NCBI RefSeq assembly: GCF_001517625.2
Contig: NZ_LN999827.1
Coordinates: forward strand, 205,348 to 269,347
Reading direction: 5' to 3'
Source: Clostridium sp. AT4
GTDB taxonomy: Bacteria > Bacillota > Clostridia > Lachnospirales > Lachnospiraceae
DNA length: 64,000 nt
The notes below the pieces were generated by a model, which saw only the letters and a program-made list of their open reading frames with translations, ran no database searches and was not told the DNA's origin. Shown here piece after piece: positions 3,839-40,056 of the stretch. Numbering within the stretch: the stretch's first letter is position 1; each line of letters starts with the position of its first letter. Position numbers and translations under genes: made by a program.

Positions 3839-4339
3839 CTACAAATAATAATGCGCAAATCTCGCCTCTCCATCCTCTCCGATCTCCATAACCATATAGG
3901 AGGGCCGCCTGCCCTCCTGTCTGGGATAGGACAGGCTTCCGGGGTTGAGCACGATCAGATCCTTTTCACCTTCCCGCCGGTCAATCTCAAAAAAAGGCCG
4001 GTGGGTGTGACCGAACATAGCGATATCAAAATCTCTTGACCTTGCCTCTTCTTTTAAATACTCTGTGCTTAAAGACACATGATAGTAATGGCCATGGGTT
4101 AAAAGCGTTTTGTATTTTCCGATCATAAGATCCCGTTCCCGCTCCAGATGGGAAAAGAAGTCATTGTTTCCCAGAACCATCTCCAGTTCACAGCCCGGTT
4201 CTGCCCAATGAGCGATGTACTGTTCGCTTCCTTCGGCATCTCCCAGATGGATCAGCATATCAAAGGGCTTTTCCTTTTCCATGACCCACTGGAGATTTCC
4301 ATCTTTTCTGTGCGTATCACTGACAATCAGTATTTTCAT
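3839..4339 (-). CDS. YfcE/MJ0936-type metallophosphoesterase
   Basis: Calcineurin-like metallophosphodiesterase (166 aa). All metal-binding motifs of the family are present in order: DTHRKDGN (residues 8-15), HLGDAEG, GNND, THGHYYHV and FGHTHRP. It has no membrane segment and is expected in the cytoplasm. It directly follows rdgB (22-base gap), a common pairing in Clostridia. The physiological substrate of this family is usually unknown; members hydrolyse model phosphodiesters. The start has an AAGGAAACAGGGG ribosome binding region. A second YfcE-like gene lies at 7.6-8.2 kb, but the two differ clearly. Confidence 0.9.
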   Translation of the reverse strand: MKILIVSDTHRKDGNLQWVMEKEKPFDMLIHLGDAEGSEQYIAHWAEPGCELEMVLGNNDFFSHLERERDLMIGKYKTLLTHGHYYHVSLSTEYLKEEARSRDFDIAMFGHTHRPFFEIDRREGEKDLIVLNPGSLSYPRQEGRRPSYMVMEIGEDGEARFAHYYL

Positions 4340-37301: not shown

Positions 37302-38378
37302 TTATGTACGGGGTCTTCCTCCGCCCACCCATTCCTTTACCTGTTTCAACATCAGGGCATCGTAATCTGTATCCCTCTGTTTAAAATTATGGAACTGGTT
37401 TTGAGAGTTCTTTTTCCCTCCCCCATCCTTTGATGCGCTGTTATAGCGCTGAAGCCGCTTTTCCTTATCTCCGCCATTTTCCTGTACCAGAGCCTGACGT
37501 CTGGCATCCAAAGCACGGACATCCTCCATTTTCTTTACGCCGGCTTTCTTCCAGTCTCTTAAAATACGGTCTGCATACTGAAAGCTGGGGCTGTGGATGG
37601 CGGTAATGGTCCGGCTGCAGGCCTCTAAAACGATTTCTCTGGCAAACCCGTACTCCTTAAACCATTTGTCGATCATGGCCTGCTCAGGAGGCGCTGCCTT
37701 GCGGTTGTTAATTCCAAAGGCCCGCATGACCGCAAAGGAATCTTTCGAATAAGCTGCTCCCAGCTCCCGTGCCTCCTGAGATGTTTTAATCCCTTTTTCA
37801 TGCCAGCTCACTGCTACCGTCTCCAGATATCGAACCGAACTGTGGCCGTTCTGGGCACAGTATTCCACAAGATATTCCAGGAGCTCACTGCTCATTCCAA
37901 GGCCCTCATAGAGCCATGCAAATACCTGACAGTCTCTTGGTGTAAAAACTTTATTTAAATATTTCTGCGCAATATAAAGAAGCTGGGAAAACTCCTCATC
38001 TCCGCAAAGCCGGTTTACCTGAGCCGCAGAATACACTGGAGCACGGTCTGCGCTGGCAGCCGTTTCCTCCTTAGCCTCTGCGCAGGAAGCAGCCGGATCC
38101 GCAGCCCAAGGAAGCTCCCCTTCCTGCTTTTTCTCATTTTCTGCCCCGGAAAGAATCCCCAGTTTTTCCCAATAACTTACAGCACGCCGCACATCGGATT
38201 CCGTATGATCGAGAGCATCCGCTATAGACTCCACGGTAAGCTCTTCGCCCTGATGACGCAGAATATAAAGATATACTTTTACATATTCCCCATTGGCACC
38301 GGCCATATATTCATCTATAAACGCATCTGCCACCATGGTAGCCCCTATGCTCCAGCGGTCCTTCCAGTTCATACTCAT
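37302..38378 (-). CDS. DnaD/DnaB-type primosome protein
   Basis: Replication initiation and restart protein (358 aa). The N-terminal winged helix lies around residues 1-90 (FIDEYMAGANGEYVKVYLYILRHQGEELTVESIADALDHTESDVRRAVSYWEKLGIL). A Glu/Ala-rich linker follows, then a DnaD (DnaB_2) domain (about 140-290) with DWKKAGVKKMEDV near its end. The C-terminus is basic and Gln/Asn-rich. ATG 38378 follows AAGGAG; the longer frame to 38555 runs through the promoter. The upstream region contains five DnaA boxes in two tandem arrays, suggesting control by DnaA. Confidence 0.9.
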   Translation of the reverse strand: MSMNWKDRWSIGATMVADAFIDEYMAGANGEYVKVYLYILRHQGEELTVESIADALDHTESDVRRAVSYWEKLGILSGAENEKKQEGELPWAADPAASCAEAKEETAASADRAPVYSAAQVNRLCGDEEFSQLLYIAQKYLNKVFTPRDCQVFAWLYEGLGMSSELLEYLVEYCAQNGHSSVRYLETVAVSWHEKGIKTSQEARELGAAYSKDSFAVMRAFGINNRKAAPPEQAMIDKWFKEYGFAREIVLEACSRTITAIHSPSFQYADRILRDWKKAGVKKMEDVRALDARRQALVQENGGDKEKRLQRYNSASKDGGGKKNSQNQFHNFKQRDTDYDALMLKQVKEWVGGGRPRT

Positions 38379-38433
38379 TTTCACCACTCCTTGCTGCATT
38401 TTCCCTTTTTCTGTCCGGGAAATGTTTGCAGAC

Positions 38434-38442
38434 AGTATATCA
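38434..38442 (-). promoter_or_regulatory. Extended -10 promoter of the dnaD-dnaI operon
   Basis: Minus strand TGATATACT, an extended -10 (TGn-TATACT at 38439-38434), about 55 bases before the ATG and about 50 bases downstream of the triple DnaA-box array. No good -35 is seen, consistent with an activated or DnaA-modulated promoter. Confidence 0.4.
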
Positions 38443-38488
38443 TATCCACTACTAAAAGAAAATAGGGCCTTCTTTCCACTGCTCATTC

Positions 38489-38515
38489 TGTGGATAATGT
38501 GGATATTGTGGAAAA
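38489..38515 (-). promoter_or_regulatory. Tandem DnaA boxes, array 1 (three contiguous 9-mers)
   Basis: Minus strand TTTTCCACA (38515-38507), ATATCCACA (38506-38498) and TTATCCACA (38497-38489) with no spacer. The last is the exact DnaA consensus; the others keep the TCCACA core. An isolated box TCATCCACA of the opposite orientation lies at 38614-38622. Confidence 0.75.
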
Positions 38516-38652
38516 ACCATCCCCCATCTGGTCTCATTCCCCCATAAGCTGTCAATTTTCCGCATAAAACCGTGGTTTTCCAAATCTCCTATCATCCTTT
38601 CATATCAGATGATTCATCCACAGTTTTTAGCTCTGTTTCGTGTTGAAAACTA

Positions 38653-38670
38653 TGTGGATATTGTGGATAA
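38653..38670 (-). promoter_or_regulatory. Tandem DnaA boxes, array 2 (two contiguous 9-mers)
   Basis: Minus strand TTATCCACA (38670-38662, exact consensus) directly followed by ATATCCACA (38661-38653). It abuts the murC stop codon at 38671-38673. Confidence 0.75.
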
Positions 38671-40056
38671 CTACAGCCCAAGGAGCTTTTCTCCCACTTT
38701 TACAATATCTCCGGCGCCCATAGTTATCAACAGATCCCCGTGTATACAATGTTCCAGAATAAATGTTTCAATCTCATCAAAGGACGGAATATAATGGACG
38801 CTTGTACCCAGCTTTTCCAGCCGTTCTGCAATATCCCTTGAACTGACTCCCAGTGTATCCGTCTCTCTGGCTGCAAAGATATCTGCCAGTATCACCTCAT
38901 CAGCACCTGACAGAGCCTGAGCAAATTCATCCAGAAATGCCTTTGTACGGGTATAGGTATGGGGCTGAAATACTACCCAGAGGCGCTTATGGGGATAATT
39001 CTCTGCCGCCTTCAGAGTAGCACTGATCTCCTGTGGATGATGGGCATAATCATCAATCACCGTTACTCCGCCGATCTCTCCCTTTTTCTCAAACCGCCGG
39101 TCTGTTCCCGTAAATTTTCTGAGGCCTGCAATTACGCCGTCAAAGCCTACACCTAATTCCAGAGCGACAGCAATGGCTGACAGAGAGTTGTATACGTTAT
39201 GCTCCCCTGTTACTCCCAGAGAAATCCGGTTTACTACCTCTCCCTGCACAATCAGGTCATAGGACGGTCTGCCAAGTTCGTCATATGTAATGTTTCCGGC
39301 TGTATAATCACTGGACGGATCCTTTCCGAAGGTGATTACGCGGCAGTTCAGTCCCCGGGTAATTTCCTCCACCCGGTCAATATCTTTGTTGATCACCAGA
39401 AGGCCTCCTGCCGGAAGCTTCTCTGCAAACAGACGGAAGGAATGACGGATATCCGCGATATCCTTAAAGAAATCCAGATGATCCTCTTCAATATTTAAAA
39501 TCACCTCAATGGTGGGATAAAAGGATAAAAAGCTGTTTGTATATTCACAGGCCTCTGTGACAAAGAATTCAGGCCCGCCTACCCGTATATTTCCGCCGAT
39601 ATCCTTCAGGATACCGCCTACAGAAATCGTAGGGTCTGTGCCGCCGGCTAACAGAATATCTGTCAGCATAGAGGTAGTGGTCGTTTTTCCGTGCGTACCG
39701 GCTATGGCTATGGACTGCTTATAATTACGCATCAGTTCCCCTAAAAGCTCCGCTCTGGTAAGCTCCGGAAGCCCCTTTGCCCGCACTGCCATAAGCTCCG
39801 GGTTGTCGCCATGGATCGCCGCTGTGTAAACCACGGCCTGAATCCCCGGCTCCTGTTCAATATTGGCGGCCCGCTGGCCGTAATAAATCCGCGCCCCCTT
39901 CTCTGTCAGATGTCTGGTAAGCTCCGTTTCATGGGCGTCAGAGCCGGATACGGTAAATCCGGCGTCCAGCAGGATCTCTGCCAGCCCGCTCATACTGATG
40001 CCTCCGATCCCAATAAAGTGAATGTGTTCCGGTTTGTCAAAATCTATCTGATACAT
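38671..40056 (-). CDS. murC: UDP-N-acetylmuramate--L-alanine ligase
   Basis: Mur ligase (461 aa) that adds L-Ala to UDP-MurNAc, the first amino acid step of peptidoglycan synthesis. N-terminal UDP-binding HFIGIGGISMSGLAEILLDAG, ATP-binding AGTHGKTTTTSM (119-130), the conserved NIEEDHLDFF and DDYAHHPQEI motifs, and the C-terminal FQPHTYTRTKAFLDEFA. Complete. In the gut Clostridia murC is often alone, outside a dcw cluster, as here. The dnaD promoter region with DnaA boxes starts right after its stop codon. Confidence 0.97.
   Translation of the reverse strand: MYQIDFDKPEHIHFIGIGGISMSGLAEILLDAGFTVSGSDAHETELTRHLTEKGARIYYGQRAANIEQEPGIQAVVYTAAIHGDNPELMAVRAKGLPELTRAELLGELMRNYKQSIAIAGTHGKTTTTSMLTDILLAGGTDPTISVGGILKDIGGNIRVGGPEFFVTEACEYTNSFLSFYPTIEVILNIEEDHLDFFKDIADIRHSFRLFAEKLPAGGLLVINKDIDRVEEITRGLNCRVITFGKDPSSDYTAGNITYDELGRPSYDLIVQGEVVNRISLGVTGEHNVYNSLSAIAVALELGVGFDGVIAGLRKFTGTDRRFEKKGEIGGVTVIDDYAHHPQEISATLKAAENYPHKRLWVVFQPHTYTRTKAFLDEFAQALSGADEVILADIFAARETDTLGVSSRDIAERLEKLGTSVHYIPSFDEIETFILEHCIHGDLLITMGAGDIVKVGEKLLGL

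Follow-up and report, generated by a model that had tools for sequence, protein, structure and literature searches.

Spacerless DnaA-box arrays as a putative DnaA-responsive region upstream of the dnaD-dnaI promoter in Lachnospiraceae

In Bacillus subtilis, DnaA activates sda and represses several operons; the sda promoter carries an upstream cluster of DnaA boxes, and this gene is directly activated by DnaA (PMC4447404). That study lists eight high-affinity B. subtilis regions, none of which is located at dnaD (PMC4447404). DnaA boxes are also present upstream of a replication-related operon of Escherichia coli, nrdAB, which is subject to activation or repression depending on the level of DnaA and its nucleotide, while the DnaA regulon of Caulobacter crescentus includes dnaQ and dnaB, the latter being a helicase-related replication gene with predicted boxes upstream (PMC8203912). 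Strong DnaA boxes clustered outside oriC are a further known arrangement, represented by datA of E. coli and by the DnaA-box clusters of B. subtilis, which jointly affect initiation (PMC5295017). The B. subtilis DnaD protein has itself been found to interact with DnaA and to inhibit its cooperative binding (PMC5295017).

A window of 64,000 nucleotides from Clostridium sp. AT4 contains a locus, between murC and the dnaD-dnaI genes, that resembles each of these systems in part. There is an upstream cluster of DnaA boxes, as at sda; the boxes precede replication-related genes, as at nrdAB, and helicase-related ones, as in C. crescentus; and strong boxes are clustered outside oriC, as in the B. 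subtilis clusters and datA. The locus differs from sda in its target gene, in the spacerless 9-bp packing of the boxes and in a helical phasing to the promoter that extends across the family, and activation, which is direct at sda, is here presumed from geometry. Gene, box layout and phylum all differ from nrdAB. In C. crescentus, the target is the helicase gene itself rather than the helicase-loading genes, the lineage is unrelated and no array or phasing is described. Unlike the B. subtilis clusters and datA, the boxes studied here keep a fixed helical phase relative to a single promoter. Neither a report of DnaA controlling dnaD nor a paper combining Lachnospiraceae with DnaA boxes was found in the searched open-access literature, and we know of no circuit from DnaA to helicase-loading genes in B. 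subtilis or E. coli.

DnaA boxes and predicted promoter in the murC-dnaD gap

The murC, dnaD-like and helicase-loader genes around the arrays are located on the minus strand. The upstream neighbor is murC (38671..40056), and the arrays are followed by a dnaD-like gene encoding a DnaD-domain/DnaB_2 protein (37302..38387). Downstream of dnaD are a gene for a helicase-loader-type AAA+ ATPase (dnaI/dnaC-like, NF005304; 36276..37256) and a ribose-phosphate pyrophosphokinase gene. This annotation agrees with a preliminary description of the window, made from the sequence alone, in which the arrays were placed upstream of genes for a DnaD primosome protein and a helicase loader. The five minus-strand 9-mers of that description, arranged without spacers as a triplet and a pair, were all recovered at their positions. 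The promoter-proximal triplet, TTTTCCACA-ATATCCACA-TTATCCACA (38489..38515), is conserved in relatives and consists of boxes at 38507-38515, 38498-38506 and 38489-38497, respectively. The pair, TTATCCACA-ATATCCACA (38653..38670), starts at the first base past the murC stop codon, with boxes at 38662-38670 and 38653-38661. A further box of opposite orientation, TCATCCACA, is present on the plus strand at 38614..38622. Among the matches at this locus, two are exact and several are near consensus.

Shuffling of the window gave a chance rate of 17.1 DnaA-box matches (at most one mismatch) per 64 kb. Six boxes were present in 182 bp, against 0.05 expected by chance (P ~2e-11). A pattern for two abutting boxes, WTWTCCACAWTWTCCACA, occurred four times in the whole 3.4-Mb genome, with three of these occurrences being at the murC-dnaD locus, while the reversed control pattern was found 0 times in the same genome. 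Chance clustering was ruled out by the shuffle rate, these whole-genome counts and the conservation in relatives described below. The spacerless packing had been called unusual, which holds within this genome, where the oriC contains no spacerless boxes, but not for the murC-dnaD locus, at which such packing is the rule across the family.

Promoters were predicted by rule: the search for a -10 reached 130 bp downstream of the array, and an extended -10 with no more than one mismatch in its hexamer was accepted. In the window, the predicted extended -10 of the dnaD promoter is TGATATACT (38434..38442, minus strand; hexamer 38434-38439), located 49 bp downstream of the triplet, in keeping with the spacing of about 50 bp given previously. 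In most loci, an extended -10 (TRTGnTATAAT) was predicted, and the conserved -35 region resembled TTTTCTTTT and matched TTGACA poorly. A consensus promoter scan of the window found nothing because the -35 is poor. The promoter logo contains a conserved element in the -35 region, CTATTTTCTTTT in the window (38454..38465, minus strand) and CTATTTTCTTTT or TTCTCATTTT at the same place in relatives, which is unlike TTGACA and could be the site of a second regulator.

Conservation across the Lachnospiraceae and phasing to the -10 hexamer

Both genome contigs and whole genomes served as sources for the dnaD loci of relatives, and the murC stop was used to orient the loci. The sample comprised approximately one locus per genus, with 83 loci having a murC-dnaD gap of at least 80 bp and 5 having a shorter gap. 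At least one spacerless run was detected in 78 of the 83 loci with the longer gap and in 0 of the 5 with the shorter gap, counts that overstate independence as the genera are related; the boxes are, hence, conserved together with the target gene and its own promoter. Two or more runs were present in 43 of the longer-gap loci, and the first run started 0 to 3 nt past the murC stop codon in 63 of the 78. Across the murC coding sequence of the sampled loci (122 kb), no spacerless run was detected. Of 299 family genomes (approximately one per genus), 80 had the full architecture of pair, gap and array, and a reversed control had 0 matches in the 299; within a class-wide sample of 148, the architecture was present in 0 of the 142 genomes from outside the order. 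At outgroup dnaD loci without murC upstream, the boxes were mostly missing. Comparison of the murC-dnaD gap across the family had been named earlier as a check on the arrays, and their conservation was borne out.

The last box of the array was mostly separated from the -10 hexamer by 46 to 50, 55 to 60, 66 to 71, 78 to 81, 87 to 91 or ~100 bases. This distance is quantized (49, 59, 69, 79 and 89 bp), with a best period of ~10.25 bp, such that the boxes are at a fixed geometry to the dnaD promoter. With the start of the -10 hexamer set as -12, the last box is centered, in different species, at about -66, -76, -86 or -96. A first set of loci (n = 90) gave a Rayleigh vector of 0.70 at 10 to 10.25 bp. 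A second set of 60 loci was fetched after the pattern had been noticed and yielded a promoter in 54; for this set, which shares a few genomes with the first (G023, G091, G153 and G157), R was 0.85 at 10.25 bp versus 0.54 at 9 bp and 0.02 at 8 bp. Following removal of identical promoters (n = 137), R was 0.75 at ~10.25 bp versus 0.51 at 9 bp. A control distance, from the -10 to the start, gave an R of only 0.22. Approximately a tenth of the loci had no clear array or no promoter under the rule.

A murC tree contained 42 changes of the array-to--10 distance. After removal of changes of ±9, the larger changes clustered on whole turns of the helix (V = 0.63), a value reached by 0 of 20,000 random draws. 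The phase was unchanged in a clade whose intergenic region is short and built differently. An origin of the periodicity in the gain or loss of 9-bp boxes was rejected, as a 9-bp period fitted worse (0.51 versus 0.75) and the steps of ±9 had been excluded from the tree test. As the murC-proximal pair was phased more weakly to the -10 (R of 0.42 to 0.48), no looping is proposed.

Alternative roles of the arrays and control of dnaD-dnaI

Most relatives have a hairpin followed by a T-tract, with the 5′ arm being supplied by the second box of the pair and the 3′ arm by a downstream TGTGGAT. Among the 78 loci, the 3′ arm was present in 51 and the T-tract in 44, and three example hairpins of relatives had folding z scores of about -6 to -8.4. 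From these features, we read the hairpin and T-tract of relatives as a probable intrinsic terminator of murC made from DnaA-box sequence. The T-tract has been lost from the window species, in which the hairpin was no better than shuffles (z of -1.15). Read on the murC strand, the opposite box TCATCCACA is the equivalent of the hairpin's 3′ arm in relatives, and its presence is explained by the second box of the pair doubling as a terminator arm in most relatives. This sixth box does lie between the two arrays, as previously described, but its reading as an independent inverted DnaA site was set aside in favor of the terminator counterpart. The T-tracts and the folding of the example hairpins could be taken to mean that the boxes are kept mainly as a murC terminator or other RNA-level element rather than for DnaA. 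This is very improbable, as it leaves unexplained the first box of the pair, the promoter-proximal triplet, for which a hairpin partner is not needed, and the phasing; moreover, the window species has retained its boxes despite the lost T-tract and nonsignificant hairpin.

A role as a DnaA-titrating locus, in which the boxes would soak up DnaA and delay initiation with the position beside dnaD being incidental, had also been suggested and is a less remote but still unlikely explanation. The locus shares clustered strong boxes outside oriC, both exact and near consensus, with the B. subtilis clusters and datA, and other box clusters are present in the same genome. It was also origin-proximal in nine genomes (3 to 22% of genome length from dnaA), a position that may only reflect conserved gene order. 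Titration, however, does not require the boxes to be phased with a promoter, nor does it predict that they should be lacking precisely at loci whose murC-dnaD gap leaves no room for a dnaD promoter, as in the five short-gap genera. Titration may be an added role beside control of dnaD. The clustering of strong boxes beside replication genes had, in addition, led to the suggestion of a secondary or ancestral replication origin, which is scarcely credible and was rejected. A standard bipartite oriC flanks dnaA, with dnaN, on another contig of the AT4 genome, and the locus was not adjacent to dnaA-dnaN in this genome or in nine relatives; in nine genomes, it was origin-proximal but not at the origin, at a variable distance of 155 to 1,096 kb from dnaA. 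An earlier proposal to place the locus by GC skew likewise gave no sign of an origin: in a complete relative (G302), the sampled skew flipped at dnaA and again between 1.4 and 1.7 Mb but kept its sign on both sides of the dnaD locus (3.11 Mb).

Direct control of the dnaD promoter by DnaA was the best-supported explanation because titration alone would not need phasing. Conservation and the helical phasing to the dnaD promoter provided strong support for the preliminary suggestion of DnaA control of helicase-loading genes, and the arrays are probably an upstream regulatory region through which the dnaD-dnaI promoter responds to DnaA. Bound to the promoter-proximal array on a single helix face, DnaA would from there act on RNA polymerase at a promoter that has an extended -10 and a poor -35. 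The pair following murC would add binding sites, as well as being part of the putative murC terminator in most relatives. The geometry is that of an upstream regulator contacting RNA polymerase from one helix face, as with class I activators, and because of this resemblance activation is favored as the probable sign of control. Activation and certain forms of repression would account equally well for the phasing, and repression at high levels of DnaA-ATP, by analogy with E. coli nrdAB, is possible. A broader proposal, that DnaA directly activates the helicase-loading genes across the Lachnospiraceae through a short spacerless run on a fixed helical face, is advanced tentatively, at slightly less than even weight.

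DnaD and the helicase loader act after DnaA in initiation. Since DnaD does so and also modulates DnaA binding in B. subtilis, DnaA control of dnaD would close a regulatory loop between the initiator and helicase loading. If this is correct, the activity of the initiator sets the supply of helicase loader, a form of coordination that, to our knowledge, has been little studied outside model species. The arrays provide a compact, conserved target within one of the major families of the gut. From the helix-phase rule, a 5-bp shift of the array is predicted to abolish control and a 10-bp shift to keep it. The spacerless 9-bp packing, being absent from the genome's own oriC, raises the question of how DnaA sits on abutting sites and whether such an arrangement favors one nucleotide state of the protein.

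Other motifs and box clusters

A TTnACATAA motif, absent from the window species, was observed just past the murC terminator in 25 of the 88 sampled loci, 61 to 65 nt after the murC stop (for example, in L043, L106 and L111), and was sometimes accompanied by an inverted copy, TTATGTnAA, in the hairpin loop. Elsewhere in the AT4 genome, four exact DnaA boxes are located between two apparently convergent genes (C3:33012-33193; L035 4013-4194), forming a candidate titration cluster, and three exact and several near boxes are present inside a predicted pseudouridine-synthase reading frame (C7:2098030-2098306; L039 4031-4307). The sole other spacerless pair in the genus of the window species was found in the secA-hpf intergenic region, where in the AT4 genome it is accompanied by two or three further boxes (C7:1936645-1936760; L038 ~4146-4261). 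This pair was upstream of hpf in every member of the genus from which it was retrieved, and hpf, a ribosome-hibernation gene, is a possible candidate for control by DnaA.
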